Shown here piece after piece: positions 1,266 to 63,950 of a stretch of 64,000 nt of DNA. The stretch spans positions 3,871,074 through 3,935,073 of the forward strand of contig NZ_CP041186.1 of NCBI RefSeq assembly GCF_006517175.1. The letters are read 5' to 3'. Position 1 is the first letter of the stretch, and each line of letters begins with the position of its first letter. Source of the DNA: Persicimonas caeni (GTDB lineage: Bacteria; Myxococcota_A; Bradymonadia; Bradymonadales; Bradymonadaceae). The position numbers and the translations under genes were made by a program. The notes beneath the pieces were generated by a model that saw only the letters and a program-made list of their open reading frames with translations, was not told where the DNA came from and did no database searches.

Positions 1266-1400
1266 GACTAAGAGTTACTAAGGGTGACTAAGAGTTACTA
1301 AGGGTGACTAAGAGTTACTAAGGGTGACTAAGCTAGCGTGTTGGACATGGCTGCTTTAGTTCCCCTTAGTTCCCCTTAGTTCCCCTTAGTTCCCCTTAAA
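1266..1400. repeat. tandem repeats forming a hairpin directly after the yebC stop
   Basis: Three copies of a 20-bp unit (GACTAAGAGTTACTAAGGGT) occupy 1266-1325 with a partial fourth. After a short spacer, four copies of TCCCCTTAGT-type decamers occupy 1355-1400 and end at the yebC stop (1402). The arms are near-complementary (AACTAAGGGG against ACTAAGGGTG), so the block can fold into an imperfect hairpin. It occupies the place of a terminator for yebC. It resembles in design, but not in sequence, the elements at 34691, 35405, 58161 and 63002. Confidence 0.85.
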
Positions 1401-34204: not shown

Positions 34205-34690
34205 GTGACCGAGAATTCCATGCAGGAAAATCTGCCACCCTGTGGACTCTACCGCACCACCGAGCCGCTCCCGGGAAAAGAGCAGTGGGTGCGCGCCGGG
34301 ATGCTTGTCTACTTTCACAACCACTCCCAGCAGGGCCCCCCGCTGCTTTTGCTGCCGGCTGAGAACAAGCTCAACCGCTGGGTCTTCCACGACAAAGGCT
34401 ACCTGATCCGCGAGCCCGGCTACGTCGAGACCCTCGAGGGGCTCAAAGACGAGAGCCTGTACGTGCTCGCCGAGCCGATCTACTTGTCGCGCGAAGAGTT
34501 CATCCCCGAGGACACCCTCGTGCAGCTGGGCTACAACCGCTCGGCCGATCCGATCTTGTTCCTCGGCCAATTCGAGGACAACGCCATCTTCTTCCCCGAC
34601 AGCGGGCTCAAGTGCACCAGCGAGGTGTTCGACTTGTTGGAGGACGTGCGGTTCCGCGTGCCCGGCCAGGACGGCGATAGGCATCACTGA
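34205..34690 (+). CDS. hypothetical cytoplasmic protein
   Basis: 161 residues. GTG 34205 starts the frame; ATG 34220 (MQENLPPCGLYRTTEP) is an equally good start. No signal, membrane segment or known domain; LLLPAENKLNRWVFHDKGY and PIYLSREEFIPEDTLVQLGY look like a beta-strand-rich, possibly SMI1/KNR4-unrelated fold. It lies 34 bp after the 32962 gene, likely one operon, and is followed at once by the long repeat hairpin. Function not inferred. Confidence 0.7.
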   Translation: MTENSMQENLPPCGLYRTTEPLPGKEQWVRAGMLVYFHNHSQQGPPLLLLPAENKLNRWVFHDKGYLIREPGYVETLEGLKDESLYVLAEPIYLSREEFIPEDTLVQLGYNRSADPILFLGQFEDNAIFFPDSGLKCTSEVFDLLEDVRFRVPGQDGDRHH

Positions 34691-34932
34691 CGGCGGCGAA
34701 AAAGCGAACAAGCAAAAGAGCAAAGAAGTAAAAGAGTAAAAGAGCAAAGAAGTAAAAGAGTAAAAGAGCAAAGAAGTAAAAGAGTAAAAGAGCAAAGAAG
34801 TAAAAGAGTAAGAAAGTAAAAAAGCAAAAGAGCAACAGCGTCACTCGCCGTTGCTCTTTTGCTTGTTCGCTTTTTAGCTCTTTTGCTGCCTTAAAGCTCT
34901 TTTGCTTGTTCGCTCTTTAGCTCTTTTGCTGC
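34691..34932. repeat. post-stop purine/pyrimidine hairpin element 1
   Basis: Starting right after the stop (TGACGGCGGCGAAAAAG), a purine-rich arm carries four tandem copies of a roughly 24-bp unit (GCAAAGAAGTAAAAGAGTAA plus AAGA). A short loop follows, and then a pyrimidine-rich arm (GCTCTTTTGCTTGTTCGC and variants) that reaches the stop of the convergent yqeY-like gene. The arms are complementary over long stretches. Both outer ends carry GGCGGC/GCTGCC, so each gene sees stop plus GGCRGC plus hairpin. Confidence 0.85.
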
Positions 34933-34933
34933 C

Positions 34934-35383
34934 TTACAGCTTGCCGAGCACGATGTCCTTCATCTTCGAGCCCTCATACCGACCTTTGATCTTGGGCATC
35001 ACGTAGCCCATGACCTTGCCCATGTCGGCCTTCGACGAGGCGCCGGTCGACTCGATGGCTTCGTCGACCAGAGCTTCGGCTTCGTCGTCGGTCATCTGCT
35101 CGGGCAGGTACTCCTCGATGACCTTGATCTCGGCCTCTTCCTTCTCGGCGAGCTCGTCGCGGCCGCCGTCGGCGTACATCTCGGCCGCCTCGCGACGCTT
35201 CTTGGCCTCCGTCGACAGCACGCTGATGACCTCGTCTTCGTCGAGGTCGTCGCCCTTGTCGATACGCGCGTTCTTCAGGCTCGACAGCAGCGAGCGGATC
35301 GTCTGGAGCTTGTCCTTCTCACGCGCTTTCATGGCCGCCTTCATGTCGGCCTTCATCTGTTGAATCGTTTCCGTTTCAGCCAT
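34934..35383 (-). CDS. GatB/YqeY domain protein
   Basis: 149 residues from ATG 35383, preceded by an AGG ribosome-binding site; a GTG nine bases further up is possible. Sequence matches YqeY family throughout: MKAREKDKLQTIRSLLSSLKN, EYLPEQMTDDEAEALVDEAI and GKVMGYVMPKIKGRYEG (the last also found as the tRNA-binding tail of GatB). The role of stand-alone YqeY is unproven; binding to tRNA or aminoacyl-tRNA amidotransferase-related function is suggested by the shared domain. It sits between two post-stop hairpin elements (34691 and 35405). Confidence 0.92.
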   Translation of the reverse strand: MAETETIQQMKADMKAAMKAREKDKLQTIRSLLSSLKNARIDKGDDLDEDEVISVLSTEAKKRREAAEMYADGGRDELAEKEEAEIKVIEEYLPEQMTDDEAEALVDEAIESTGASSKADMGKVMGYVMPKIKGRYEGSKMKDIVLGKL

Positions 35384-35404
35384 TGGGCTCACCTTGGGTG
35401 AGAG

Positions 35405-35570
35405 CGAAAAGCTCGAGAGAAAAAAGTAAAAGAGTAAAAGAGCAAAGAAGCAACACCGTTGCTTTGACTTCTTCGCTCTTTCACTTGCTTGTAGTTCTTT
35501 AACTTCTTCGCTCTTTAACTCGTTCGCTCTTTGACTTGTTAGCTTTTTCGCTGTTTAGCTTTTCGCTGCC
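35405..35570. repeat. post-stop purine/pyrimidine hairpin element 2
   Basis: On the minus strand the lipoprotein stop (TAA) is followed by GGCAGCGAAAAGC and a long purine-rich run. The complementary pyrimidine arm is in the leader of yqeY (the purine run AAAAGTAAAAGAGTAAAAGA on the plus strand at 35424-35443 and nearby). The loop is short (CAACACCGTTG). The genes on either side point the same way, so the hairpin is intercistronic. Confidence 0.8.
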
Positions 35571-36206
35571 TTATTCGGCGGTTTCGACCAGCGTGTTCGC
35601 CACGCCGTGAATGATGTCCTTTTTGGCCTCGTACATCTCGGCTTCGCTGAAGATAAACAGCGTGGCGGTCTGGTCGCCTTCGCGTTTGATGGTGTAGCCG
35701 AGGAACTGGATCTCTTGGTCCATGTCCTCTTTTTCGAGCACGCCGGTGCCGGTGCCCTTGAACACGGGCATGCCGTTGATGGTGCTCGGGCCGGTCTTCT
35801 CGACCTTGATGTCCTTGAACTGCAGGTCGGCGCGCATGTCGTTGAGCATCGACTTGGCGAGCTCCTGGGACTTCGAGCCGGCCAGAAGCACGGTCGTCGA
35901 GCCTTCCGGATCGGTAGCCGACACGCCCTCGTCGTCTTTGACGACTTTCCAGTCTTCGGGCACGCGGAACTTCAGCCCGTAGGTGTCGCTTTCGACCCAT
36001 TGGCCGGCCTGCTCTTCCTCGGCGGCCTCTTCTTCTTGGGCGCCTTCGTCGGCCTTCTCGGCCTCTTCGCCCTCGTTGGCCTCGTCGGCTTTGGCGGCCG
36101 TTTCGGTCTCGGCTTTCTCTTCGCCGCCGTCGGTCTTCGACTCACACCCGACTCCGGCCAGGAGCACGAGCGACAGAACCAACAAGCTCGTCAGTACCTT
36201 CTTCAT
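35571..36206 (-). CDS. hypothetical lipoprotein with acidic linker
   Basis: 211 residues. Signal MKKVLTSLLVLSLVLLAGVGC gives a lipobox GVGC. Then a 45-residue Glu/Ala/Lys-rich linker (EEKAETETAAKADEANEGEE), followed by a globular part with YGLKFRVPEDWKVVKDDEGV, a strand pattern found in PsbP/DcrB-like proteins. A weak AGGG ribosome-binding site is 7 bases before ATG 36206. Likely attached to a membrane and exposed outside. Function unknown. Confidence 0.82.
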   Translation of the reverse strand: MKKVLTSLLVLSLVLLAGVGCESKTDGGEEKAETETAAKADEANEGEEAEKADEGAQEEEAAEEEQAGQWVESDTYGLKFRVPEDWKVVKDDEGVSATDPEGSTTVLLAGSKSQELAKSMLNDMRADLQFKDIKVEKTGPSTINGMPVFKGTGTGVLEKEDMDQEIQFLGYTIKREGDQTATLFIFSEAEMYEAKKDIIHGVANTLVETAE

Positions 36207-45184: not shown

Positions 45185-48100
45185 ATGATAGGATCGAAGA
45201 GGCGGACCCTACAGCGGGTCTGCGTGGTAGTAGCGTTAGTGCAGGCGGCCGCGTTTTGGACTGGATGTTCGGACGATGACGACAAGACAGAGGAGCCGCT
45301 CACTCTCTCCGAGCTCGTCGAAGTCGGCGAGCCGAGCGGAAAGACCAGCGAGGCTGGCGCGCAAGCGACCTTCTCGGTGGCGCTCAAGGAGAAGCCGTCG
45401 GCCGACGTCGTGCTCCAGGTGGCCTCGAGTGACCCCGGCGAGGGTGAGGTCGACCGGGCGACGCTGACCTTCACCCCCGACAACTGGGACGCCCCGCAGA
45501 CGGTCACCGTGACCGGCCAAGACGACGATCTCGCCGACGGCGAGCAGGCCTACCAGGTGGTCTTCGAGGCGATGGAGAGCGACGACGAGCGCTTCGCCGG
45601 CCTCCAGCCGCCCAGCGTCGCGCTGGCCAACGTCGACGACGAGACGGCCGGCTTTACGGTCAGCGAGGCCTCCGGCGACACCACCGAGGCTGGCGGGCAG
45701 GCCAGCTTCACGCTAGTCCTCAACTCCCAGCCGACCGCTGACGTGGTCGTCAGCCTCGAGTCGAGCGACGCCGAAGAGGGCACGCCCGATCGCAGCAGCC
45801 TGACCTTCACCCCCGACAACTGGAACGCCCCGCAGACGGTCACCGTGACCGGCCAAGACGACGATCTGGCCGACGGGCCGCAGGCTTACCAGGTGGTCTT
45901 CGGCGAGACGTCCAGCGACGACGCCGATTACGCGGCGATCGCCCCCGAGGCGGTCGACTTCACCAACGTCGACGACGAGACGGCGGGCATCACCGTCAGT
46001 GAAGCCTCCGGCGACACCACCGAGGCGGGCGGGCAGGCCAGCTTCACTGTGGTCCTCAACTCCCAGCCCGAGGCCGACGTCACCCTGAGCCTCGCCTCGA
46101 GCGACCCCGGCGAAGGCACGGCCGACAAGACCGCGCTGACGTTCACCGCCGACAACTGGAACGCCCCGCAGACGGTGACCGTGACCGGCCAGGACGACGA
46201 TCTGGCCGACGGCAACCAGGCCTACGAAATCCTGTTCGAGGAGACGACCAGCGCCGACGCCGACTACGCGGCGATCTCGCCCGAGGCGGTCGCCTTCGCC
46301 AACGTCGACGACGAGACGCCCGGCATCACCGTCCAGGTGCTCGACGCCACGACCACCGAAGGCGGCGGCCAGGCCGTCTTTTCGGTTGTGCTCAACTCCA
46401 AGCCCGCCGCCGCGGTCAGCCTCGGCTTCGCGGTCGACGCTCCCGAAGAGGCGAGCCTGGGCACGAGCGAGTTGACCTTCACCCCCGACAACTGGAACGC
46501 CCCGCAGACGGTGCTCGTGACCGGTCTCGACGATGAAATCGCCGACGGCGACCAGCCCTTCGGCGTGGTCTTCGAGGCGAGCGCGAGCGACGACGCCGAC
46601 TACGCCGGGCTGACCCCGCAGAACCTGGCGCTGACCAACGTCGACGACGACTCGGCCGGCTTCACCGTCAGCCCGATGAGCGGCCCGACGACCGAGGCGG
46701 GCGGCCAGGCGACCTTCGCGGTGGTGCTCAACTCCGAGCCGACCGACGACGTCACGCTCAGCTTCGACTCGAGCGACCTGGGCGAGGGCGTGCTCGATCG
46801 CACCGAGCTGACCTTCACCGTCCAGAACTGGAACGCCCCGCAGGCGGTCATCGTGACCGGCCAGGACGACGATCTGGCCGACGGCGACCAGCCGTACGCG
46901 ATCGCCTTCTCGGCGACCACGAGTAACGACGCGCGCTACGCCGCGCTGACCCCGCAGAACGTGGCCGTGAGCAACACCGACGACGACTCGGCGGGCATCA
47001 CCGTCAGCGATATCAGCGGTGACACCAGCGAGGCGGGCGCGCAGGCGAGCTTTACGGTCGTGCTCAACTCCGAGCCGTTCGAAGACGTCACCATCAACCT
47101 CGACTCGGGCGCCCTGGGCGAAGGTCTGGTCGACAAGACCGCGCTGACCTTCACCGCGCAGAACTGGAACGCCCCGCAGACGGTCACCGTCACCGGACAA
47201 GACGACGACCGCGCCGACGGCGACCAGCCCTACAGCATCGTGTTTGCGGCGACGACGAGCAACGACGCCGCCTACGCAGCGATCACTCCGCAGAACGTGG
47301 CGGTGACCAACACCGACGACGATTCGGCAGGCATCACCGTCAGCGCCGTGAGCGGCGCCACCACCGAAGCCGGCGGCCAGGCGAGCTTCACGGTCGTGCT
47401 CAACTCCGAGCCGTTCGAAGACGTCACCGTCAACCTCGACTCGGCCGGCGCCGACGAGGGCACGGTCGACAAGACCACGTTGACGTTCACCGCCCAGAAC
47501 TGGAACGCCCCGCAGACGGTCACGATCACCGGCCAGAATGACGACTACGCCGACGGCGACCAGCCCTACGACATCGTGTTCTCGGCGACGACGAGCAACG
47601 ACGCCGCATATGCTGCGATCACCCCGCAGAACGTGGCGGTGACCAACACCGACGACGACTCGGCGGGCATCACGGTCAGCGCGATCAGCGGCCCGACGGG
47701 TGAAGCCGGCGGCCAGGCCACGTTCACCGTGGTCCTCAACTCGCGCCCCTACGGCGACGTCGCGCTGAGCTTCGAGTCGAGCGACGCCGGCGAGGGTAGC
47801 CTCGACAAGGCGAGCCTGACGTTCACCGACGCCAACTGGAACGCCCCGCAGACGGTGACGCTGACCGGCCAAGACGACGATCTGGCCGACGGCGACCAGC
47901 CCTACAGCGTGGTCTTCGACCCCACGAGCAGCCAGGACCCGGCCTACGACGCGTTGTCGCTGCAAAACGTCGCCGTGAGCAACGTCGACGACGACTCGGC
48001 GGGCATCACCGTCAGCGCCGTGAGCGGCCCGACGAGCGAAGCCGGCGGCCAGGCGACCTTCACGATCGTGCTCAACTCCGAGCCCTACGAGGACGTGACC

Positions 48101-51100
48101 CTCAACTTCGGCTCCAACGAACGCGGCGAAGGCGTGCTCGACAAGACGTCGCTGACGTTCACTGCCCAGAACTGGAACGCCCCGCAGACGGTCACGTTGA
48201 CCGGTCAGGACGACGAATATGCCGACGGCGACCAGCCCTACGCGGTGGCCTTCCTTCCGGCGCTCAGCCAGGACGCAGCCTACAACGGGCTGACCCCGCA
48301 GAACGTGGCGGTGACCAACACCGACAACGACTCGGCGGGCATCACCGTGAGCGCGGTGAGCGGCGCCACCAGTGAGGCGGGCGGCCAAGCCAGCTTCACC
48401 GTGGTCCTCAACTCGCGCCCCTACGGCGACGTCACCGTCAACTTCGACTCGAGCGACGCCGGCGAGGGTAGCCTCGACACGACCTCGCTGACGTTCACCG
48501 ACCAGAACTGGAACGCGCCGCAGACGGCGACGCTGACCGGCCAAAACGACGACCTGGCCGACGGCGACCAGCCGTACGCGGTGACCTTCGCGGCGACGAC
48601 GAGTCAGGACGCCGCCTACGCAGCGATCACCCCGCAGAACGTGGCGGTGACCAACACCGACGACGACTCGGCGGGCATCACCGTGGGCGCGATCAGCGGC
48701 GCGACGAGCGAAGCCGGCGGCCAGGCCACGTTCACCGTGGTGCTCAACTCCGAGCCCTTCGAAGACGTCATCGTCAACCTCGACTCGGCCAGCGCCGACG
48801 AGGGCACGGTCGACAAGACCGCGCTGACGTTCACCGCGCAAAACTGGAACGCCCCGCAGACGGTCACGGTGACCGGCCAGGACGACTTCTTGGCCGACGG
48901 CGACCAGCCCTACGCCATCGCCTTCTCGGCGACGACGAGCCAGGACGCGGCCTACGCGGCGATCACTCCGCAGAACGTGGCGGTGACGAACACCGACGAC
49001 GACTCGGCAGGGATTACCGTCAGCGCCGTGAGCGGCTCCACCAGTGAAGCCGGCGGCCAGGCCACGTTCACCGTGGTGCTCAACTCCCAGCCCTTCGAAG
49101 ACGTGACCGTCAACTACGCCTCGACCGACACGAGCGAGGGCACGGTCGGCAATGGCAGCCTGACCTTCACCGACCAGAACTGGAACGCCCCGCAGACGGT
49201 CACGGTGACCGGCCAGGACGACTTCTTGGCCGACGGCGACCAGCCGTACGCCATCGCCTTCTCGGCGACGACGAGCCAGGACGCGGCCTACGCGGCGATC
49301 ACCCCGCAGAACGTGGCGGTGCAAAACACCGACGACGACTCGGCGGGCATCACCGTGAGCGCCATCAGCGGCTCGACGAGCGAGGCGGGCGGCCAGGCGA
49401 GCTTTACCGTCGCGCTCAACTCGCGCCCCTACGCCGACGTCACGGTCAGCTTCGCTTCGAGCGATGCAGGCGAGGGTAGCCTCGACAAGACGACGCTGAC
49501 GTTCACCGACCAGAACTGGAACGCCCCGCAGACGGTCACGCTGACCGGTCAGGACGACTTGTTGGCCGACGGCGACCAGCCCTACAGCGTCGTCTTCTCG
49601 GCGACGACGAGTGGGGACCCGGCCTACGCGGCGATCACTCCGCAAAACGTGGCGGTGACCAACACCGACGACGACTCGGCGGGCATCACCGTCACTCTCG
49701 TCGACGGCACCACGGGCGAAGACAACGCCCAGGGCAGCTTCGCAGTGGTGCTCAACTCGCAGCCGTACGCCGACGTCACGGTCAACTTCGCCTCGAACGA
49801 TGCCGGCGAGGGCATCGCGGCGACGAGCAGCCTGACGTTCACCGACCAGAACTGGAACGCCCCGCAGCAGGTCACCGTGGTCGGCCAGAACGACGCGTTC
49901 GCCGACGGCGACCAGCCGTACGCCATCGCCTTCTCGGCGACGACGAGTGGGGACGCGGCCTACGCGGCGATCACCCCGCAGAACGTGGCGTTCACCAACG
50001 TCGACGACGACTCGGCGGGCATCACCGTGGGCGCGATCAGCGGCCCGACGAGCGAGGCGGGCGGCCAAGCCACCTTCTCGGTGGTGCTCAACTCGCGTCC
50101 GTTCGCCGATGTGGTGGTGAACCTCGACTCCAACAACCCGGCCGAGGGCACCGTCGACCAGACGAGCCTGACGTTCACCGACGCCGATTGGGACACCCCG
50201 CAGACGGTCACCGTGGCCGGCCAGGACGACTTCTTGGCCGACGGCGACCAGCCGTACGCCATCGCCTTTACGGCGACGACGAGTGGGGACGCGGCCTACG
50301 CGGCGATCACCCCGCAGAACGTGGCGGTGACCAACACCGACGACGACTCGGCGGGCATCACCGTGGGCGCGATCAGCGGCCCGACGAGTGAAGCCGGCGG
50401 CCAGGCGACCTTCACGGTCGTGCTCAACAGCGAGCCGTACGACACGGTCACGCTCACCTTGGGCTCGAACGACTCCACCGAGGGTCTCGTCGACCAGACG
50501 AGCCTGACGTTCACCTCGGCTGACTGGAACACCCCGCAGACGGTCACCATCACCGGCCAGGACGACTTCGTGGCCGACGGCGACCAGCCCTACGCGGTCA
50601 CGTTCGGCGCCAGCTCGAGCAACGACGCCGCCTATGCCGGGATCACCCCGCAGAACGTGGCGGTGACCAACACCGACAACGACTCGGCGAGTATCCAGGT
50701 CAGCGCGATCAGCAACGACACCAGCGAGAGCGGCGGCCAGGCGACGTTTACCGTCGTGCTGACCTCGCGTCCCCTCGCCGACGTGACCGTTGGCTTCGAC
50801 AGCAACGATCTGACCGAGGGCACCGTGTCGGTGACGCAGCTGACGTTCACCTCGGCCGACTGGGATACCCCGCAGGTGGTCACGGTCACCGGTGTGGACG
50901 ACCCCGACAGCGACGGCCCGCAGGCCTACGGCATCGCGTTCGTGCCCACGGTCAGCGGCGACGCTGCCTACAACGGGCTGACGCCCGCAACGGTGGCGGT
51001 GACCAACGCCGACGACGAGTGGGTCGATATCACCGGTAGCACCGTCGGTTGGGGTCATCATGGCTCCTGCACCTCGTTCAACGGGTGCGGCGACGCGGCG

Positions 51101-51298
51101 ACGTGTGCGCTGTGGGCTTGCCAGGCCGAGGGCTTCAGCAGCCTGTACTCCTACGGTCGGGTGTCGACCTGTGAGTCGGGCGGCTTTACCACCTGTCACC
51201 TATTCAGCAGTCAGACCTCGGTCGACTACAACTGGGGGCCGTGGAGCGGTGGCGGGTGCGATATCCCCGTCGTCAGCGAGATTCGCTGTCTGCAATAA
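45185..51298 (+). CDS. giant Calx-beta-like repeat lipoprotein
   Basis: About 2037 residues. ATG 45185 follows GGAG with 6 bases; the ATG at 45173 overlaps it. Signal VCVVVALVQAAAFWTGC then SDDDDKTEE gives a lipoprotein. The body is 17 near-identical 112-residue (336-bp) repeats, each with the pattern SEAGGQATFTVVLNS-P, LTFT-NWNAPQTVTVTGQDD, DGDQPY and a closing NTDDDSAGITVS. These have Calx-beta-like character, with Asp/Glu-rich loops that could bind Ca2+. Repeats 1-5 and 14-17 vary most; the middle ones are nearly clonal. A 90-residue C-terminal domain has eight or so Cys (GSCTSFNGCGDAATCALWAC ... CHLF ... CDIPVVSEIRC). It is probably a long fibrous surface adhesin. A paralogue is at 53276. 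Confidence 0.92.
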   Translation: MIGSKRRTLQRVCVVVALVQAAAFWTGCSDDDDKTEEPLTLSELVEVGEPSGKTSEAGAQATFSVALKEKPSADVVLQVASSDPGEGEVDRATLTFTPDNWDAPQTVTVTGQDDDLADGEQAYQVVFEAMESDDERFAGLQPPSVALANVDDETAGFTVSEASGDTTEAGGQASFTLVLNSQPTADVVVSLESSDAEEGTPDRSSLTFTPDNWNAPQTVTVTGQDDDLADGPQAYQVVFGETSSDDADYAAIAPEAVDFTNVDDETAGITVSEASGDTTEAGGQASFTVVLNSQPEADVTLSLASSDPGEGTADKTALTFTADNWNAPQTVTVTGQDDDLADGNQAYEILFEETTSADADYAAISPEAVAFANVDDETPGITVQVLDATTTEGGGQAVFSVVLNSKPAAAVSLGFAVDAPEEASLGTSELTFTPDNWNAPQTVLVTGLDDEIADGDQPFGVVFEASASDDADYAGLTPQNLALTNVDDDSAGFTVSPMSGPTTEAGGQATFAVVLNSEPTDDVTLSFDSSDLGEGVLDRTELTFTVQNWNAPQAVIVTGQDDDLADGDQPYAIAFSATTSNDARYAALTPQNVAVSNTDDDSAGITVSDISGDTSEAGAQASFTVVLNSEPFEDVTINLDSGALGEGLVDKTALTFTAQNWNAPQTVTVTGQDDDRADGDQPYSIVFAATTSNDAAYAAITPQNVAVTNTDDDSAGITVSAVSGATTEAGGQASFTVVLNSEPFEDVTVNLDSAGADEGTVDKTTLTFTAQNWNAPQTVTITGQNDDYADGDQPYDIVFSATTSNDAAYAAITPQNVAVTNTDDDSAGITVSAISGPTGEAGGQATFTVVLNSRPYGDVALSFESSDAGEGSLDKASLTFTDANWNAPQTVTLTGQDDDLADGDQPYSVVFDPTSSQDPAYDALSLQNVAVSNVDDDSAGITVSAVSGPTSEAGGQATFTIVLNSEPYEDVTLNFGSNERGEGVLDKTSLTFTAQNWNAPQTVTLTGQDDEYADGDQPYAVAFLPALSQDAAYNGLTPQNVAVTNTDNDSAGITVSAVSGATSEAGGQASFTVVLNSRPYGDVTVNFDSSDAGEGSLDTTSLTFTDQNWNAPQTATLTGQNDDLADGDQPYAVTFAATTSQDAAYAAITPQNVAVTNTDDDSAGITVGAISGATSEAGGQATFTVVLNSEPFEDVIVNLDSASADEGTVDKTALTFTAQNWNAPQTVTVTGQDDFLADGDQPYAIAFSATTSQDAAYAAITPQNVAVTNTDDDSAGITVSAVSGSTSEAGGQATFTVVLNSQPFEDVTVNYASTDTSEGTVGNGSLTFTDQNWNAPQTVTVTGQDDFLADGDQPYAIAFSATTSQDAAYAAITPQNVAVQNTDDDSAGITVSAISGSTSEAGGQASFTVALNSRPYADVTVSFASSDAGEGSLDKTTLTFTDQNWNAPQTVTLTGQDDLLADGDQPYSVVFSATTSGDPAYAAITPQNVAVTNTDDDSAGITVTLVDGTTGEDNAQGSFAVVLNSQPYADVTVNFASNDAGEGIAATSSLTFTDQNWNAPQQVTVVGQNDAFADGDQPYAIAFSATTSGDAAYAAITPQNVAFTNVDDDSAGITVGAISGPTSEAGGQATFSVVLNSRPFADVVVNLDSNNPAEGTVDQTSLTFTDADWDTPQTVTVAGQDDFLADGDQPYAIAFTATTSGDAAYAAITPQNVAVTNTDDDSAGITVGAISGPTSEAGGQATFTVVLNSEPYDTVTLTLGSNDSTEGLVDQTSLTFTSADWNTPQTVTITGQDDFVADGDQPYAVTFGASSSNDAAYAGITPQNVAVTNTDNDSASIQVSAISNDTSESGGQATFTVVLTSRPLADVTVGFDSNDLTEGTVSVTQLTFTSADWDTPQVVTVTGVDDPDSDGPQAYGIAFVPTVSGDAAYNGLTPATVAVTNADDEWVDITGSTVGWGHHGSCTSFNGCGDAATCALWACQAEGFSSLYSYGRVSTCESGGFTTCHLFSSQTSVDYNWGPWSGGGCDIPVVSEIRCLQ
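45310..51021 (+). repeat. 17 tandem 336-bp repeats in the giant gene
   Basis: The period is exactly 336 bp throughout: the same antisense landmarks recur at 46936, 47272, 48616, 49624, 49960, 50296 and 50632, all multiples of 336 apart. Exact spacing with high identity in the middle units suggests expansion by unequal recombination and active homogenisation. Assembly collapse or expansion is possible here. Confidence 0.9.
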
Positions 51299-53275: not shown

Positions 53276-56200
53276 GTGAAGAAGAGATATTTACGGCGGA
53301 TTTGTATTGCCTTGGCTTTGGCACAAGCCGCCGCGTTTGGCGCAGCTTGTAGCGACGATGGCACCGGCGGGACCGGGGTCAATAACGGCACCTTGGAGCC
53401 GGGAACCGAGCTTGTGACCTTGGGTGAGGTGAGCGGGACGACCAGTGAGATGGGCGGCCAGGCCAGCTTCGATGTGGTGCTGGCCGTACAGCCCACGGCC
53501 GATGTCGTCATAAGCCTCGCCTCGAATGATCCCGAGGAGGGCCAGGCCGACGTCTCCTCGCTCACCTTCACTCCGGAAAACTGGGACGCGCCGCAGACGG
53601 TTACGGTGACCGGCCAAGACGACGATGTGGCCGACGGCGACCAGACCTACGCGATCGTGGTCGAGTCGCTCGAGACCGACGACAGCCGCTTCGACATCTT
53701 CGAGAAGGTCGAGATCGAGCTGACCAACGTAGACGACGAGACGGCAGGCTTCACGGTCACCGACCCCGACGGCGACACCACCGAGGCCGGTGGACAGGCG
53801 AGCTTCACGGTCGTCTTGAACTCGCAGCCGACTGCCGACGTGACGCTGGAGCTCGCGTCGAGCAATCCTGAAGAAGGCACGATCGATAAGTCGACGCTGA
53901 CCTTCACCGCGGATAACTGGAACGCCCCGCAGACGGTCACCGCCACCGGCCAAGACGATGACGTCGCCGACGGAAACCAGCTCTACGAGGTGGTCTTCGG
54001 CGAGACGACCAGCGACGATGAAGAGTACGCAGCCATCGCGCCGGACGCCGTCGAGCTGACCAACGTCGACGACGAGACGGCCGGCTTCACCGTCAGCGAC
54101 CCCACAGGTGACACCACCGAGGCAGGCGAGCAGGCGAGCTTTACGGTCGTCTTGAACTCGCAGCCGACCGCCGACGTGACGCTGACCCTCGGGTCGAGCG
54201 ACCCCGACGAGGGCACAGTCGACGTCTCTTCGCTGACGTTTACGCCGGACAACTGGAACGCCCCGCAGACGGTCACCGCGACCGGCCAGGACGATGACGT
54301 CGCCGACGGAAACCAGCTCTATGAGGTGGTCTTTAGCGAGACGATCAGTGATGACGCCGACTACGCGGCGATCGTGCCCGACAGCGTCGAGCTGACCAAC
54401 GTCGACGACGAGACGCCCGGGATTTCGGTGAATCAGGTCAGCAGCTCCACCAGTGAAGCCGGCGGCCAGGCCACGTTCACCGTGGTGCTCAACTCCAAGC
54501 CGTTCGACGACGTCACGGTCAACTTCGACACCAGTGACGCCGGCGAGGGCACGGTCGACCAGACCAGCCTGACGTTCACCGACCAGAACTGGAACGCCCC
54601 GCAGACGGTCACGTTGACCGGTCAAGACGACGACTATGCCGACGGCGACCAGCCGTACAACGTGGTCTTCTCGGCCACGACGAGCAACGACGCGGCTTAC
54701 GCAGCGATCACCCCGCAGAACGTGGCGGTGACCAACACCGACGACGACTCGGCGGGCATCACCGTCAGCCCGATCAGCGGCAACACCACCGAAGCCGGCG
54801 GCCAGGCCACGTTCACCGTGGTGCTCAACTCCGAGCCCTTCGACGACGTCACCGTCAACTTCGGCTCGTACAACACCCGTGAAGGCACGGTCGGCCAGTC
54901 CAGCCTGACGTTCACCGACCAGAACTGGAACGCGCCGCAGACAGTCACCGTCACCGGCCAGGACGACGACGTGGCCGACGGCGACCAGCCATATGTGATT
55001 GCATTCGCGGCGACGACGAGCACCGACGCGGCCTACGCGGCGATCACCCCGCAGAGCGTGGCGGTGACCAACACCGACGACGACTCGGCGGGCATCACCG
55101 TCAGCCCGATCAGCGGCAATACCAGCGAGTCCGGCGGCCAGGCCACATTCACCGTGGTGCTCAACTCCGAGCCGTTCGACGACGTCACCGTCAGCTTCGA
55201 TTCGAGCGACACAGGCGAGGGTACGGTCGGCCAGTCCAGCCTGACCTTCACGGACCAGAACTGGAACGCGCCGCAGACGGTCACGTTGACCGGCCAGAAC
55301 GACGACTACGCCGACGGCGACCAGCCGTACAATGTGGTCTTCTCGGCCACGACGAGCAACGACGCGGCCTATGCGGCGATCACCCCGCAGAACGTGGCGG
55401 TGACCAACACCGACGACGACTCGGCGGGTATTTCGGTCACCGTGGTGGACGCTAGCTCCGACGAGGCCGGCGCGCTGGCTGAATTTATGGTCGTGCTCAA
55501 CTCGCGCCCGTTCGACGACGTCACCGTCAACTTCGACTCGAGCGATACCAGCGAGGGCATCGTCTCGCGGACGAGCTTGACGTTCACCGACCAGAACTGG
55601 AACGCCCCCCAGACGGTCACCGTGGCCGGACAAGATGATAACTTGGATGACGGCGACCAGCCCTACAACGTGGTCTTCTCGGCCACGACGAGCAACGACG
55701 CGGCCTATGCGGCGATCACCCCGCAAAATGTGGCGTTGACGAACACCGATGATGACTCCGCTGGCGTAACGGTCAGCATCAGCGCCGCGACGAGCACCGA
55801 AGACGGCGGCGCGGCGACCTTCTCGGTCGTGCTCAACTCCGAGCCGTTCGACGATGTGACCTTCAACTTCGCCACCAGCGATGCTACCGAGGGTGTGCCG
55901 ACCGCCAACAGCCTGACGTTCACCTCGGCAAACTGGAACGCGCCGCAAAATATCGTCGTCCAGGGCCAGGACGACGACTTGGCCGACGGCGACCAGCCGT
56001 ACGCCATCACGTTCGGGGCGACGACGAGCAACGACGCGGCTTACGCGGCGATCTCGCCCCAAAATGTGTCGCTGACGAATACCGACAACGATACCGCTGG
56101 TATCGAGGTGAGTGCGATATCGGGTGACACGACCGAGGCGGGGGGCCAGGCCACGTTCACCGTGGTGCTTCGCTCGCAGCCCTTCGATGACGTGACCGTC

Positions 56201-57046
56201 AACTTCGGCTCCACCGACCCGGGCGAGGGTCAGGTGGGCACGTCGAGCTTGACCTTCACCGACGCCAACTGGAGCACCCCTCAGGTCGTGACCGTGACGG
56301 GTCAAGACGACTTCGTCGCTGACGGCGCTCAACCGTATGCGATCACATTCAGCGCGACGACGAGCAGTGACGCGGCTTACGCGGCGATCACTCCGGCGAA
56401 TGTGTCGGTGACCAACACCGACGACGACACCGCCGGCATCTCCGTTACCCCGCTGACGGGCAACACTTCCGAGGCTGGCGGGCAAGCTACTTTCGACGTC
56501 GTACTCAACTCCGAGCCCACCGGCGACGTCACGCTGACCTACGCGGTCAGCGACAGCAGCGAAGGAAGTGTCTCGCCTGCGTCGTTGACGTTCACCCCCG
56601 CCAATTGGAATACCCCCCAGACCATTCAGGTCACCGGTGTGGACGACAACCTGTCAGACGGCAACCAGTCTTACACGCTCGACTTCAACGCCTCGTCGAG
56701 CACGGATGGTAACTACGACGGCCTCGTGCCGGCCCAACGGTCCCTCAGCAATGTCGATAATGAGGTAGCGGTGGGGACCACCGGCACGACTGGACGCATC
56801 TCGGGAGCTGAGTGGATTGTCTGTCGCGCCGATAGCAGCACAGCCTGGGTCGCGGCGAATAGTGGAGGCGTGTACAACCCGACCGTCGCCTGCCAATCGT
56901 TGGGATATTCAGGCGCCGACGCATGGGGGGGAACTTGCGGCACCGTGTGCGGTTATTGCGGCCAACAGGGCAACGAGTATTACGACGGCGGTGGCGGTGA
57001 CGCCACTTACCTGACCTTCACCGTCCATTGGAGGTGCACACAATAA
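53276..57046 (+). CDS. giant Calx-beta-like repeat lipoprotein, second paralogue
   Basis: About 1256 residues from GTG 53276 after AGGTGAG; the ATG at 53219 is upstream of a stop-free but unconserved leader. Signal ICIALALAQAAAFGAAC then SDDGTGG, a lipoprotein. The signal region is a clear relative of the first gene (RRxxLxRxCxxxALxQAAAF). The body is ten 112-residue repeats of the same family; repeats 1-3 resemble the first repeats of the 45185 gene. The C-terminal domain is different but again Cys-rich (VCRADSSTAW ... CQSLGYSGADAWGGTCGTVCGYCGQQGNEYY). Probably a surface adhesin with another binding specificity. AT-rich DNA (AAAAAATTGATTTTTT, 53214-53229) just upstream may hold its promoter. 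Confidence 0.92.
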   Translation: MKKRYLRRICIALALAQAAAFGAACSDDGTGGTGVNNGTLEPGTELVTLGEVSGTTSEMGGQASFDVVLAVQPTADVVISLASNDPEEGQADVSSLTFTPENWDAPQTVTVTGQDDDVADGDQTYAIVVESLETDDSRFDIFEKVEIELTNVDDETAGFTVTDPDGDTTEAGGQASFTVVLNSQPTADVTLELASSNPEEGTIDKSTLTFTADNWNAPQTVTATGQDDDVADGNQLYEVVFGETTSDDEEYAAIAPDAVELTNVDDETAGFTVSDPTGDTTEAGEQASFTVVLNSQPTADVTLTLGSSDPDEGTVDVSSLTFTPDNWNAPQTVTATGQDDDVADGNQLYEVVFSETISDDADYAAIVPDSVELTNVDDETPGISVNQVSSSTSEAGGQATFTVVLNSKPFDDVTVNFDTSDAGEGTVDQTSLTFTDQNWNAPQTVTLTGQDDDYADGDQPYNVVFSATTSNDAAYAAITPQNVAVTNTDDDSAGITVSPISGNTTEAGGQATFTVVLNSEPFDDVTVNFGSYNTREGTVGQSSLTFTDQNWNAPQTVTVTGQDDDVADGDQPYVIAFAATTSTDAAYAAITPQSVAVTNTDDDSAGITVSPISGNTSESGGQATFTVVLNSEPFDDVTVSFDSSDTGEGTVGQSSLTFTDQNWNAPQTVTLTGQNDDYADGDQPYNVVFSATTSNDAAYAAITPQNVAVTNTDDDSAGISVTVVDASSDEAGALAEFMVVLNSRPFDDVTVNFDSSDTSEGIVSRTSLTFTDQNWNAPQTVTVAGQDDNLDDGDQPYNVVFSATTSNDAAYAAITPQNVALTNTDDDSAGVTVSISAATSTEDGGAATFSVVLNSEPFDDVTFNFATSDATEGVPTANSLTFTSANWNAPQNIVVQGQDDDLADGDQPYAITFGATTSNDAAYAAISPQNVSLTNTDNDTAGIEVSAISGDTTEAGGQATFTVVLRSQPFDDVTVNFGSTDPGEGQVGTSSLTFTDANWSTPQVVTVTGQDDFVADGAQPYAITFSATTSSDAAYAAITPANVSVTNTDDDTAGISVTPLTGNTSEAGGQATFDVVLNSEPTGDVTLTYAVSDSSEGSVSPASLTFTPANWNTPQTIQVTGVDDNLSDGNQSYTLDFNASSSTDGNYDGLVPAQRSLSNVDNEVAVGTTGTTGRISGAEWIVCRADSSTAWVAANSGGVYNPTVACQSLGYSGADAWGGTCGTVCGYCGQQGNEYYDGGGGDATYLTFTVHWRCTQ
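53411..56770 (+). repeat. 10 tandem 336-bp repeats in the second giant gene
   Basis: Same 336-bp period and the same phrase set as 45310-51021, e.g. TTCACCGACCAGAACTGGAA. Middle repeats share long identical stretches with those of the first gene, so the two loci can recombine. Limits are approximate. Confidence 0.88.
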
Positions 57047-57259: not shown

Positions 57260-58159
57260 ATGTCAGATACTTACCAAACGCCGCGCGTGCCGCCGATCGA
57301 CCAGGTCGGAATCGAGGAGCGCGCGGGTCGCTTCAAGACGCGCAGCATCAAGAAGGCGGCCAAGAAGGCCGGCCTGAACTTGGCCATCACGATGGTCGAT
57401 TTGACCACGCTGGCCGGCATGGACACCCCCGGCAAAGTGCGCATGTTGTGCCGCAAAGCGCGGCTGCCCAGCCAGACGCTGGACACCCCGAAGGTCGCCG
57501 CCGTCTGTGTCTACCCGAGCATGGTGCCGATCGCCGTCGAGGAGCTCGAGGGCACCGGCATCAATATCGCGTCGGTCGCCACCTACTTTCCCAGCGGCCA
57601 GTCCTCGCTCGAGGGGCGCCTCGCCGACACCAGAGAGGCCGTCGAGGCGGGCGCCAACGAGATCGACATGGTCATCAACCGCGGCGCGTTTTTGGCCGGC
57701 GAGTACGTGCGGGTCTTTGATGAGATCTGCGCGGTGCGAGAGGCCTGCGGCGACGCCCACCTCAAGGTGATCTTGGAGACCGGCGAGCTCGAGACCTACG
57801 ACAACGTGCGTCTGGCCAGCCAGATCGCCATCGACGCCGGGGCGCATTTCATCAAGACGTCGACCGGCAAGGTCAAGCCGGCGGCGACGATGCCCGTGAC
57901 GCTCGTCATGCTGCAGACCATCCGCGACCACTTCTTGAAGACCGGCGAGATGGTCGGCATGAAGCCGGCCGGCGGCATCCGCGACGCCAAGCTCGCCCTT
58001 CGTTACCTGGCGATGGTCAAAGAGACGCTGGGCGACGCCTGGCTGTCGAACGAATGGTTCCGCTTTGGCGCCTCGTCGCTCCTGAATGACCTGCTCATGC
58101 AGCTCGAGAAGCTCGAGAGCGGTCGCTATCACTCCAGCCGTTACCTGAGCATCAGCTAA
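57260..58159 (+). CDS. deoC: deoxyribose-phosphate aldolase
   Basis: 299 residues from ATG 57260; the longer frame to 57095 has no start support. The Schiff-base Lys199 is in FIKTSTGKVKP, and GMKPAGGIRDA carries the second conserved Lys. It is longer than E. coli DeoC by 40 residues, mainly at the N-terminus (QVGIEERAGRFKTRSIKKAAKKAGL), a form found in deltaproteobacteria and actinobacteria with adjacent aldehyde dehydrogenases. DERA converts 2-deoxyribose 5-phosphate to acetaldehyde and glyceraldehyde 3-phosphate, and can also run in reverse. The downstream ALDH pair would deal with the acetaldehyde. A post-stop hairpin element lies between deoC and the ALDH. Confidence 0.93.
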   Translation: MSDTYQTPRVPPIDQVGIEERAGRFKTRSIKKAAKKAGLNLAITMVDLTTLAGMDTPGKVRMLCRKARLPSQTLDTPKVAAVCVYPSMVPIAVEELEGTGINIASVATYFPSGQSSLEGRLADTREAVEAGANEIDMVINRGAFLAGEYVRVFDEICAVREACGDAHLKVILETGELETYDNVRLASQIAIDAGAHFIKTSTGKVKPAATMPVTLVMLQTIRDHFLKTGEMVGMKPAGGIRDAKLALRYLAMVKETLGDAWLSNEWFRFGASSLLNDLLMQLEKLESGRYHSSRYLSIS

Positions 58160-58160
58160 A

Positions 58161-58300
58161 GGCAGCAAAGAAGCGAAAAAGTAAGAGAGCAAAAGAGTAA
58201 AGGCTCAATAAAATTGGCCGCATCTGCTTCCTCTTCTCTTTTACTTTTTTACTTTTTTACTTTTTTACTTTTTGCTTGTTTGCTTGTTTGCTTTTTGCTC
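58161..58300. repeat. post-stop purine/pyrimidine hairpin element 3
   Basis: TAAAGGCAGCAAAGAAGCGA at the deoC end, then purine-rich AAGTAAGAGAGCAAAAGAGT, a 40-bp spacer and a pyrimidine arm (TTTTACTTTTTTACTTTTTT, TTTGCTTGTTTGCTTGTTTG) ending next to the ribosome-binding site of the aldehyde dehydrogenase. Here the element separates two genes that point the same way, so a strong structure could lower read-through or protect the deoC message. Confidence 0.82.
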
Positions 58301-58320
58301 CCAATCATCCGGAGGATGAT

Positions 58321-59796
58321 GTGAACAAACCATCCGACATGAAAGACCTGCTCTTCGGCGACATGTGGGGCTACGATCCGGCGCCGCAGGGCACCGACTT
58401 CGTCGAGCTCGACGAGCGTTACGGCCACTTCATCGACGGCGAATTCGTCATCCCCGAGGAGAGCGAGTTCTTCCCGTCGATCAACCCGGCGACCGAAGAG
58501 CCCATCGCGCAGGTGGCCGCGGCGACCGAAGAGACGGTCGACAAAGCCGTCCAAGCCGCGCGCAAGGCCTACGAGAAGTACTGGAAGAAGACCAAACCGG
58601 CCGAGCGCGCCAAGTACATCTACCGCATCGCGCGGATGATGCAGGAGAAGGCGCGCGAGCTGGCCGTCGTCGAGACGATGGACGGCGGCAAGCCCATTCG
58701 CGAGTCGCGCGACGTCGACGTGCCCCTGGCCGCGGCGCATTTCTTCCACTACGCCGGCTGGGCCGACAAGCTCGAGTACGCCTTCCCGGGCGCGCAGGTC
58801 TCGCCCATCGGCGTGGCCGGCCAGATCATCCCGTGGAACTTCCCGCTGCTCATGGCTGCCTGGAAGATCGCCCCGGCGCTGGCCACCGGCAACACGATCG
58901 TCATCAAGCCCGCCGAGACGACGCCGCTGACGGCGATGCTCCTGGCCGAGATCATCCAGGAGGCCGACCTGCCGCCGGGCGTGGTCAACTTCGTCAACGG
59001 CGCAGGCGCCACCGGCGCGGCGATCGTCAACCACGACGACGTCGACAAGATCGCCTTCACCGGCTCGACCGCCGTCGGCAAGCTCATCCAGCGCCAGCTG
59101 GCGGGCACCGACAAGCGTTTGACGCTCGAGCTGGGCGGCAAGGGCGCCAACATCATCTTCGACGACGCCCCCATCGACCAAGCCGTCGAGGGCATCGTCA
59201 ACGGCATCTTCTTCAACCAGGGCCACGTCTGCTGCGCCGGCTCGCGGCTACTCGTCCAAGAGAACATCCACGACGAGGTCATCGACAAGCTCAAGCGACG
59301 CATGTCGACGCTTCGGGTGGGCGACCCGCTCGACAAGAACACCGACATCGGCGCGATCAACTCGCTCGAGCAGCTCAACCGCATCCAGGAGCTCATCGGC
59401 GCGGGCATGGAAGAGGGCGCCCAGATGCACCAGCCCGACTGCGACGTGCCCGAGACCGGCTACTTCTTGCAGCCGACGATCTTCACCGACGTCACCCCGT
59501 CGCACCGCATCGCCCAAGAAGAAATCTTCGGGCCGGTCCTGTCGGTGCTGACCTTCCGCACCCCCGACGAGGCGATCGAGAAGGCCAACAACACCTTCTA
59601 CGGACTCGCCAACGGCATCTGGACCGACAAGGGCAGCAAGCTGTTCCGCGTGGCCGGCGCGCTCAAATCGGGCGTGGTGTGGGGCAACACCTACAACAAG
59701 TTCGACCCGGCGAGCCCGTTCGGCGGCTACAAAGAGAGCGGGTTTGGGCGTGAAGGTGGGCGGCATGGGCTCATGCCGTATTTGAAGCTTTCGTAG
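58321..59796 (+). CDS. aldehyde dehydrogenase (NAD-dependent)
   Basis: 491 residues. GTG 58321 is preferred because GGAGG ends 5-6 bases upstream; ATG 58339 (MKDLLFGDMW) is possible. Full ALDH fold. The catalytic general base is Glu270 in TLELGGKGANI, the nucleophile Cys304 in FFNQGHVCCAGSRLLV, and NAD-binding motifs are GVAGQIIPWNFPLLMAAWKIAPALA and FTGSTAVGKLI. The end (GGYKESGFGREGG) is intact. It is probably cytoplasmic, oxidising the acetaldehyde from DeoC or another small aldehyde. It is followed by a truncated relative. Confidence 0.95.
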   Translation: MNKPSDMKDLLFGDMWGYDPAPQGTDFVELDERYGHFIDGEFVIPEESEFFPSINPATEEPIAQVAAATEETVDKAVQAARKAYEKYWKKTKPAERAKYIYRIARMMQEKARELAVVETMDGGKPIRESRDVDVPLAAAHFFHYAGWADKLEYAFPGAQVSPIGVAGQIIPWNFPLLMAAWKIAPALATGNTIVIKPAETTPLTAMLLAEIIQEADLPPGVVNFVNGAGATGAAIVNHDDVDKIAFTGSTAVGKLIQRQLAGTDKRLTLELGGKGANIIFDDAPIDQAVEGIVNGIFFNQGHVCCAGSRLLVQENIHDEVIDKLKRRMSTLRVGDPLDKNTDIGAINSLEQLNRIQELIGAGMEEGAQMHQPDCDVPETGYFLQPTIFTDVTPSHRIAQEEIFGPVLSVLTFRTPDEAIEKANNTFYGLANGIWTDKGSKLFRVAGALKSGVVWGNTYNKFDPASPFGGYKESGFGREGGRHGLMPYLKLS

Positions 59797-59805: not shown

Positions 59806-60050
59806 CAGAAAGCGAGGCGTAGCAATGCGGCGCCCCCCATCCGTCTGGCGCGGTTGCGGAAAGCGAGGCGTAGCAATGCGGCGCCCCCCATCCGCCTCGC
59901 GCTAAACTACGCGCTCGGCAACACCCGCAAGCGGGTACCCGCCCAGGGGAAGGGGTGCTGTTGCGGAAAGCTACGTGGTTCGGGCGCGCAAGGACATCCC
60001 TTCCCCTCGGGGAAGGTGCCCGTAGCGAAGCGAAGGGCGGATGGGGGGCG
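59806..60050. repeat. palindromic MITE-like element, copy 1
   Basis: Two direct copies of a left arm (AAAGCGAGGCGTAGCAATGC then GGCGCCCCCCATCCG) at 59806-59852 and 59856-59902. The right arm at 59998-60050 ends in CGAAGCGAAGGGCGGATGGG plus GGGC, the complement of the left arm. The inner part forms smaller hairpins (CCCCTCGGGG). No ORF inside. It is upstream of the truncated ALDH gene; copy 2 is just downstream of it. Confidence 0.8.
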
Positions 60051-60964: not shown

Positions 60965-60970
60965 GTGTCT

Positions 60971-61118
60971 CAGAAAGCAAGGCGTAGCTTTTTGGCGCCC
61001 CCCATCCGCCTTGCGCGAACCGACCACGTAGCTTTTCGCAGGGTAATCCCTTACCCCTCGGGGAAGGTGCCCGTAGCGAAGCGAAGGGCGGATGGGGGGC
61101 ACCGCATTGCTACGCCTT
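60971..61118. repeat. palindromic MITE-like element, copy 2
   Basis: Left arm AAAGCAAGGCGTAGCTTTTT then GGCGCCCCCCATCCGCC (60974-61010). Right arm GGCGGATGGGGGGC followed by CGCATTGCTACGCCTT (61087-61118). Arms match the copy at 59806. Inner hairpin CCCCTCGGGG again. Start of the element is 7 bp after the stop of the truncated ALDH gene. Confidence 0.82.
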
Positions 61119-61263
61119 ACGTCTTGCAACATTGCCTTCCCTCCCCACGATCCTACGATTTTTCGTAGGCCACATACCCACAACTTGCATGGAATTTATC
61201 CGCCGCCCGTAGCGCTCAAGAACCTAGAGGCTTGCAATACGTCCCCACGCCCACGTCTGGAAA

Positions 61264-62749: not shown

Positions 62750-63001
62750 ATGGCTGACAAGCACGAAGAGCACGAAGGACCGATCCACCAGGCTGGCTGG
62801 GTTTTCTATCTCACCGTCGCCGTTTGTTACGCGGTGCTGGCCCTGGTCATGTTCGCCAAATGGTCGGCCGATAGTGCCGAGATCGCCGACATCGTCAACG
62901 TCTTCGCCATCCAAGCGGGCGTGCTCGCGGCGTTCATCGCAGTGTTCGGCGGCACCCTCTACCTCGCTAACAAGCTCGTCGGCGCCACCAGCGGCGATTG
63001 A
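62750..63001 (+). CDS. small membrane protein, two TM segments
   Basis: 83 residues from ATG 62750. Charged N-terminus (ADKHEEHEGPIHQ) followed by two membrane helices (VFYLTVAVCYAVLALVMFA, VNVFAIQAGVLAAFIAVFGGTLYLA) connected by a short polar turn. The size and plan recall small accessory subunits (cytochrome oxidase or ATP synthase-type), but nothing confirms this. It is upstream of hairpin element 4. Confidence 0.75.
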   Translation: MADKHEEHEGPIHQAGWVFYLTVAVCYAVLALVMFAKWSADSAEIADIVNVFAIQAGVLAAFIAVFGGTLYLANKLVGATSGD

Positions 63002-63266
63002 CGGCAGCGAAAGAGCGAAAGAGTAAAGAAGCGAAAGAGTAAAGAAGCGAAAGAGTAAAGAAGCGAAAGAGTAAAGAAGTAAAAAAGTGAAAGAGCAACA
63101 ACGGGCATTAGGCTCGCTGTTGCTCTTTTGCTTTTTCGCTCTTTTGCTTTTTCGCTCTTTCGCTTCTTCGCTCTTTCGCTTCTTCGCTCTCTTGCTTCTT
63201 CGCTCTTTTGCTTCTTCGCTCTTTTGCTTCTTCGCTCTTTTGCTTTTTCGCTCTTCTACCCGCTGC
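63002..63266. repeat. post-stop purine/pyrimidine hairpin element 4
   Basis: TGACGGCAGCGAAAGAGCG right at the stop, then tandem GCGAAAGAGTAAAGAA units (about 15 bp, four copies). The loop is AACAACGGGCATTAGGCTCG. A longer pyrimidine arm (CTCTTTTGCTTTTTCGCTCT, CTTCTTCGCTCTTTTGCT) ends just before the stop of convergent pssA. The pyrimidine arm is longer than the purine arm, so part stays single or has slipped. Confidence 0.85.
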
Positions 63267-63950
63267 TCACGGCTTCGGGATTTTGAGCGTGCCGCTGATC
63301 ATCGCGCAACCGCTCAAAAAGTACATCGTCGACAGCGGGTGCCAGCCCATGCCCAGGATCTCGACCGAGCCGAACCAGAAGTTGGCGCCGACCGCGCCCT
63401 GCGAGAACGCGATGACGAGGACGATCACCAGCACGATGCTCGTCGGGATCGGGGTGCCCTCGTAGTACTTGACCTTGCCGGAGGTCTCCTCGGTGAGTTC
63501 GGCTGCGGTGGCGTTGTAGCGGGCCAGACGGCTGATGCCGCAGGCGACGAAGAAGATGAGCACCGCCATGTCGAGTCCGCCGCGCATGCCCAGCGCCCAC
63601 GCCAGGACCGCCGGGGCGACGCCGAACGACACGATATCGGATAGGCTGTCGAGGTCGGGGCCGAGCATCGACTGCGCGCGGCGCCAGCGGGCCACGTAGC
63701 CGTCGAAGAAGTCCAAGATCAGCGCCACGGGCAGCAGGGCGAACGACACCCACAGATAGCCCACCTCGTGCTCGGAGGCGTAGCTGAGCGCCAAGAAGAT
63801 CGACGCGGTGCCACAGCTGGCGTTGCCCAGCGTGATCAGGTCGGCCAGCGAGAACTCGCGCAGCATCGAGAAGCGTCTTTTCTTCGCCTTTTCGCTTTCG
63901 GTGAGGGTGTTCGTCGGTGATTGCGCTGATTCTGGAGTGGTCTCGGACAT
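63267..63950 (-). CDS. pssA: CDP-diacylglycerol--serine O-phosphatidyltransferase
   Basis: 227 residues. The CDP-alcohol phosphatidyltransferase signature is complete: D-x-x-D-G-x-x-A-R in DFFDGYVARWRRAQSMLG, then P-D-L-D-S-L-S-D. Several membrane helices follow (FGVAPAVLAWALGMRGGLDMAVLIFF, TSIVLVIVLVIAFSQG). This is the type II enzyme for phosphatidylserine synthesis, the first step to phosphatidylethanolamine. psd is not visible in the window. N-terminal 25 residues are Ser/Thr/Glu-rich and precede the first helix. Its stop follows hairpin element 4. Confidence 0.94.
   Translation of the reverse strand: MSETTPESAQSPTNTLTESEKAKKRRFSMLREFSLADLITLGNASCGTASIFLALSYASEHEVGYLWVSFALLPVALILDFFDGYVARWRRAQSMLGPDLDSLSDIVSFGVAPAVLAWALGMRGGLDMAVLIFFVACGISRLARYNATAAELTEETSGKVKYYEGTPIPTSIVLVIVLVIAFSQGAVGANFWFGSVEILGMGWHPLSTMYFLSGCAMISGTLKIPKP

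Follow-up and report, generated by a model that had tools for sequence, protein, structure and literature searches.

Across the genome of the predatory bacterium Persicimonas caeni, some stop codons adjoin long hairpins in which one arm is a tandem array of a degenerate octamer, AGYRAARR, and the other an array of its reverse complement. At orthologous operon junctions of Spirosoma, a hairpin persists in place through replacement of its repeat unit, with changes in both arms. We propose, with a probability of about 0.5, that these elements are transcript-end hairpins at gene boundaries, either terminators or intercistronic helices, with arms grown by slippage and kept by template switching together with selection.

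Octamer hairpins in the window

The window, the whole stretch of 64,000 nucleotides analysed here, contains four such elements, at 34691–34933, 35384–35570, 58160–58320 and 63002–63266. Reading of the sequence and scans for tandem and inverted repeats indicated that each consists of a purine-rich (R) array followed by a complementary pyrimidine-rich (Y) array, and that each occupies the whole gap between two called genes. RNA folding gave z-scores of −8.5, −5.6, −4.7 and −11.5, respectively, against dinucleotide shuffles, confirming as real the four complementary hairpins that a sequence-only reading of this DNA had described.

Element 1 (34691–34933) fills a convergent gap between a plus-strand gene (34205–34690) and yqeY (minus strand, 34934–35383). 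Its purine-side octamer array (34696–34832, plus strand) contains five copies of a 24-nt higher-order unit, its core (34822–34864, minus strand) is a terminator-like hairpin of 19 pairs with A/T tracts on both sides, and its pyrimidine-side array (34853–34933, plus strand), the reverse complement of AGYRAARR, adjoins the yqeY stop with the boundary TAA-GGCAGC on the minus strand. Element 2 (35384–35570, minus strand) runs, in a tandem context, from the stop side of a minus-strand gene (35571–36182; boundary TAA-GGCAGC) to the start of yqeY, with a core hairpin at 35446–35465 in the region of GAAGCAACACCGTTGCTTTG. Element 3 (58160–58320, plus strand) separates co-directional genes for a deoC-like aldolase (57287–58159) and an aldehyde dehydrogenase (58321–59796), and has its purine array at 58164–58203 and its pyrimidine array at 58230–58299. 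Element 4 (63002–63266) is again convergent, between a plus-strand gene (62750–63001) and a CDP-alcohol phosphatidyltransferase gene (minus strand, 63267–63866); here the purine-side array (63006–63098, plus strand) repeats a 16-nt higher-order unit, AAAGAAGCGAAAGAGT, 4.4 times, the core hairpin GAGCAACAACGGGCATTAGGCTCGCTGTTGCTCT (63093–63128) has a z of −6.4, and the pyrimidine-side array (63120–63255, plus strand) holds 8.4 copies of the 16-nt unit GCTCTTTTGCTTCTTC. The same architecture, built from a 10-mer, was found at 1262–1398, with GGGTGACTAAGAGTTACTAA at 1262–1332 and TTAGTTCCCC at 1356–1398, the latter lying 3 nt from the stop of a minus-strand gene (1402–2160). Elements 1 and 4, the cores of elements 2 and 4, and the 10-mer element are listed with no strand assigned.

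A GC-rich stem directly joined to a U-rich tract, as in an intrinsic terminator, is present at convergent cores such as 34822–34864 and also in structured cores, and the core of the tandem copy at 58160–58320 is weak. A simple terminator scanner returned no match in 58100–58400 or 62950–63350, and an Rfam search of the window gave no match.

Several other features of the window were recorded. A small palindrome, ATCATCCGGAGGATGAT, lies at 58304–58320, immediately ahead of the aldehyde dehydrogenase gene and its GTG start, and includes a GGAGG ribosome-binding site; hairpins of a similar kind, also on the start side, lie at genome positions 1355614–1355744 (TTTCCGAAGGAAACGT-ATG) and 5′ of yqeY (CTCACCCAAGGTGAG). 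Two imperfect palindromes, at 59882–60050 and 60966–61131, have CGCCCCCCATCCGCC ... GGCGGATGGGGGGC in common and are possibly a REP-like dispersed repeat. Two giant genes (45239–51298 and 53318–57046; about 2020 and 1243 aa) contain 336-bp tandem repeats, with weak Pfam matches.

One degenerate octamer builds the arms

The arms had been described as varied microsatellites with variable repeat units, a description that we replace with a single degenerate octamer, AGYRAARR, which builds all four window hairpins. The pattern AGYRAARRAGYRAARRAG has 71 matches in the window, as compared with 0.23 expected from shuffles, and three octamers in a row match 262 times in the whole P. caeni genome (one contig of 8,047,206 bases) versus 4 times for the reversed pattern; this control is invalid for AGTGAAAA arrays (G067), which match in both directions. 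Positions A1, G2, A5 and A6 are fixed at 91–98%, whereas the variation at positions 3, 4, 7 and 8 is almost confined to the purine or pyrimidine class, and every one of the 16 Y/R combinations occurs. Each octamer carries one pyrimidine, at position 3 in nearly every unit, so that the arrays are not purely purine; position 3 is C in about half of the Persicimonas units, giving CAA or CGA, which are not stops.

The hexamer GGCRGC, reported at the start of the arms, begins five of the six window arms, the sixth having TGA GCAGCGGG, whereas in the sampled genome it does so in just 10 of the 53 stop-facing arms, indicating that this boundary is largely local to the window. We rejected it as a defining boundary: its 71 genome matches, versus 19 for the reversed control, lie mostly away from arrays.

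Genome-wide placement at stop codons

The census covered a sample of 1.66 Mb, comprising regions around all listed octamer matches and two unbiased blocks, in which genes were called with our own hexamer model. It yielded 45 octamer loci, 42 of them intergenic: 23 in convergent gaps, 18 in tandem gaps and one in a divergent gap. The number in convergent gaps compares with 5.7 expected from intergenic base pairs (p = 4e-10). The R arm came first and the Y arm second in all 24 two-arm loci.

The outer end lies within about 24 nt of the stop in 48 of 53 stop-facing arms, at a median distance of 4 nt, so that an element stands right against the stop of one flanking gene or of both; of the 16 arms that had 60 nt or more of intergenic space to move in, 11 were found no farther than 22 nt from the stop, versus 2.6 expected (p = 5e-5). 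Random placement is thus refuted, and the fixed placement by stop codons noticed in the window extends to the sampled genome. In 21 of 53 arms (d mod 8 = 3), the stop codon keeps the register of the array and itself makes up the YRA of a unit. Between the arms a GC-rich hairpin core is usual, with z below −2.5 in about 19 of the 24 two-arm loci, and a canonical terminator hairpin is still there at the one-arm loci 29072, 5898003, 6026698 and 7631384. Comparison of the P. caeni loci revealed no common sequence at the element ends, and flanks and cores differ at each copy. Among convergent gaps, the share with a hairpin scoring at least 20 was 32% in both Persicimonas and Spirosoma and 18% in Bradymonas, and for E. 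coli it was 0 of 5 in the sample taken; all these numbers are small.

Arm matching and other repeat units in P. caeni

Within P. caeni, matched arms were no more complementary than arms swapped between loci (0.547 versus 0.580, p = 0.975), and RNA duplex energies of matched and swapped arms did not differ (p = 0.39). Complementarity is thus preserved, as had been claimed, at the level of unit and orientation, but matched arms fare no better than swapped ones, and co-variation within this genome is unsupported by either measure. Each arm seems to turn over by slippage within the octamer rule.

Inverted pairing extends to other units: 72 of 282 non-octamer tandem arrays in P. caeni have an inverted partner nearby, versus 2.6 expected. 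These units include the heptamer TCTTGGT/ACCAAGA, CACGGGGAN, AGTGGTTG and the decamer ACTAAGGGTN, which is also the one at window positions 1262–1398. Inverted (TCTTGGT)n...(ACCAAGA)n arrays of fixed polarity were observed at five intergenic sites (genome positions 52973, 213837, 1008852, 2132214 and 6017633). Telomere-like intergenic arrays, such as AAACCCCCAAACCCTAAACCCCC and GGGGTTTA, were seen at 1664892, 2553042, 3006980 and 2934997.

Orthologous junctions of Spirosoma

In Spirosoma, a hairpin is present in 26 of 28 distinct accB-accC gaps and in 20 of about 26 murE-mraY gaps, covering most of the distance between the stop of the first gene and the start of the second. The unit varies by species and may be AGTGAAAG, TGATTGAGTGAT, GTGAATGAGCGAATGA, GGTTGAGTGATTGAAT or GATAGAATGA. 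Matched arms were more complementary than swapped arms at both junctions (accB-accC, 0.599 versus 0.378; murE-mraY, 0.393 versus 0.259; p = 5e-5 each), as they were among ten species that have the octamer as their common unit (0.902 versus 0.764). Between close species, taken as overlapping species pairs, the count of mirrored Watson-Crick substitutions was 13 where 0.8 would be expected; a further 40 substitutions were one-sided. The co-variation of arms, absent inside P. caeni, is therefore strong at these orthologous junctions.

On the sense strand, G.U exceeded A.C at accB-accC (33 versus 19, p = 0.035) but not at murE-mraY (16 versus 17); strand-specific tolerance of G.U, being weak or absent, was discarded as proof of selection on RNA. 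The sense arms of the accB-accC hairpins contain 254 stops, as compared with 8. Spirosoma arms have several times gained a short GC-rich repeat, CCGGRCCGCCGGRGCGG, flanked by TGA on either side and usually in one arm only; at two loci, L271 and L308, an insert of this type sits at the mirrored place in both arms, which points to arm-to-arm copying. Such arm inserts, of 17–20 nt between TGA copies, were noted at six loci (L263, L271, L305, L307, L308 and L309) and resemble very small mobile repeats.

Occurrence in other genomes

A scan of public genomes for four octamers in a row detected this architecture, among the matches listed, in Spirosoma, Rudanella, Leyella, Prevotella bins, Flavobacterium, Acidobacteriota, Rickettsiales and others. 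Bacteroidota and Acidobacteriota are thus among the phyla that carry octamer hairpins. R preceded Y at 21 of 21 loci in these other genomes, among the matches listed, with the opposite order at none, and many arrays adjoin stops. These other genomes were picked by the pattern match itself, which bears on how special the octamer is. The octamer occurs in 29 of 36 Spirosoma genomes, the reversed control having 0 matches in any, and in only 2 of 58 genomes among P. caeni relatives: P. caeni itself and one genome with a single match.

Downstream of yqeY, the facing gene is kept in several genera of Bradymonadaceae. This gap holds octamers in Persicimonas, inverted arrays of GGGCAGGTGGTGGGTAAA in G014 (L327) and inverted arrays of another unit, GCTGAATT and related, in G009 (L337). 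Some syntenic yqeY gaps of other Bradymonadaceae are short and carry no hairpin, indicating that the element is dispensable or optional in this family, where the unit also changes. At L334–L336, in other Bradymonadaceae, a different repeat was noticed 3′ of yqeY, with CGAACGCCTGGCACCCGATCTTCTGA in tandem beside a simple terminator.

Comparison with known elements

The nearest known structure in kind is the P6b stem of the tRNA-Leu(UAA) intron of Nostoc and Calothrix, whose fold is retained as heptamers of Class I (TDNGATT) and Class II (NNTGAGT) take each other's place (PMC4476775). In both cases the stem pairs tandem degenerate units with their complements, and the unit class is replaced between lineages; however, P6b lies in a group I intron and uses 7-mers, whereas the octamer hairpins are intergenic, at gene ends, and repeated over the genome. 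Replaceable complementary tandem units with the stem kept are found at the Spirosoma junctions, while the Persicimonas arms match at the level of the unit only.

STRR heptamers and TAACTGA direct repeats, known from Cyanobacteria, Beggiatoaceae and Bacteroidetes (PMC4679880), are likewise genome-wide intergenic arrays of short units, some by stop codons, with a patchy distribution across phyla. Unlike the octamers, which are degenerate and form inverted pairs at stops, they consist of exact 7-mers, which in Beggiatoaceae are mostly directly repeated close to start codons; period, degeneracy and inverted pairing exclude the octamers from that group. REP, BIME and REPIN elements are 20–40 bp long, with conserved sequence and end tags (PMC3733652, PMC3116915). 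They too are extragenic palindromes with many copies per genome, but octamer hairpins have just a unit rule in common, are variable in length and share no sequence at their ends, and we do not assign them to that family. Bidirectional intrinsic terminators resemble the octamer hairpins in their GC-rich core, A-rich and T-rich flanks and location between convergent genes, and differ in lacking the tandem-octamer outer arms, of up to about 180 nt, and the placement at operon-internal junctions. A search of open-licence papers for octamer hairpins at gene ends found no description and nothing closer than these systems.

Function, upkeep and alternative explanations

Judged by sequence and context, gene-boundary hairpins of this kind may function as terminators or processing signals. 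In RNA from either strand, a core between convergent genes would, together with the A-rich and U-rich tracts beside it, serve as a bidirectional intrinsic terminator and 3′-end stabiliser, and the arms would lengthen the core hairpin. Between co-directional genes, the element would instead be an intercistronic helix affecting the processing or stability of the upstream cistron. Because the hairpin there reaches almost to the next start codon and leaves hardly any space for a promoter, complete termination is implausible at these junctions, and a role in processing or stability is more likely. The earlier suggestion of a bidirectional terminator thus suits convergent copies with a GC-rich core but fits badly inside the murE-mraY and accB-accC junctions of Spirosoma.

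As to their upkeep, non-triplet units would expand by slippage and be tolerated solely after a stop codon, and the complementarity of the arms could be kept if replication uses one arm as the template for the other, the outcome being filtered by selection for the helix. In its abstract, PMC8794818 presents template switching in replication as a route that creates and maintains hairpin stems. That mechanism makes and maintains complementary arms and mimics compensatory change, whereas tandem-unit arms at bacterial gene ends go unmentioned in that abstract. In Persicimonas, within-arm slippage may have outpaced arm-to-arm copying, so that just the unit and its orientation still match. More tentatively, at slightly under even odds, we regard the hairpins as one class across phyla, with a helix conserved at orthologous operon junctions, a unit repeatedly replaced and changes copied from arm to arm, the structure being maintained by slippage and template switching with pairing as the sole object of selection. 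The earlier claim of selection on structure and not sequence holds for this hairpin class, in that Spirosoma pairing is kept as the unit turns over; it is unprovable from the four places in the window, and behind it may lie template switching as well as selection.

We consider neutral slippage a serious possibility, although we lean against it: non-triplet units would expand harmlessly after the stop, complementarity would reflect a shared oriented unit plus replication template switching, and the hairpin would be functionless. This agrees with the independence of arms within Persicimonas, the lack of a clear G.U bias, the variable presence of a hairpin in yqeY gaps across genera and the tolerance of small-repeat insertions in one or two arms, but not with long-term retention at two Spirosoma operon junctions (26/28 and about 20 of about 26 gaps) despite replacement of the unit, nor with the avoidance of divergent, promoter-bearing gaps (1/42) or the fixed R-then-Y order. 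Should the elements be intercistronic double-stranded helices that act as an RNase III-type processing or mRNA-stability signal, which we think rather unlikely, recognition of long duplexes by shape would explain why sequence is free while pairing is kept. The helices are indeed long, as judged by the fold z of the four window elements, they sit between co-directional partners (deoC and aldehyde dehydrogenase; accB/accC and murE/mraY in Spirosoma), and pairing is retained in Spirosoma as sequence changes; yet most Persicimonas copies are convergent, with no downstream cistron, and an RNA-specific excess of G.U is absent.

It is quite improbable that the hairpins are a dispersed or horizontally spread element, REP- or STRR-like, inserting after stop codons. 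The same degenerate octamer does appear in distant phyla, among the matches listed, and its presence in 29/36 Spirosoma genomes yet only 2/58 P. caeni relatives, itself counted, would suit such spread, but there is no constant sequence, end or length, flanks and cores are unlike at every copy, and the unit has been replaced in place at orthologous Spirosoma junctions. We give still less weight to stop arrays in all three frames, in which the purine arm read in the sense direction would supply TAA or TGA every 8 nt as a fail-safe against read-through or frameshifted ribosomes. The in-phase gene stops (21/53 arms) and the sense-arm stops of the accB-accC hairpins (254 versus 8) speak for it; however, position 3 is C in about half of the Persicimonas units, the composition of C-poor purine-rich arms alone yields stops, and stop polarity is missing in unbiased Persicimonas hairpins, for which reason we rejected it. 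Least credible, with a chance close to negligible, is the triplex-forming (H-DNA) insulator that had been suggested for these elements: long purine/pyrimidine strand asymmetry favours it, but a pyrimidine at position 3 interrupts nearly every octamer and leaves no pure homopurine tract, and the symmetry is inverted, whereas H-DNA requires a mirror repeat.

Significance

Our results point to a class of repeats for which we found no description in the open-licence literature, and they suggest that slippage at stop codons could be an easy way for new terminators and intercistronic hairpins to arise. In dozens of species, one and the same operon junction bears differing units whose arms match, so that these junctions amount to natural replicate experiments on the pairing of long RNA or DNA stems; with units replaced at replicate junctions, selection versus template-switch copying becomes directly testable.
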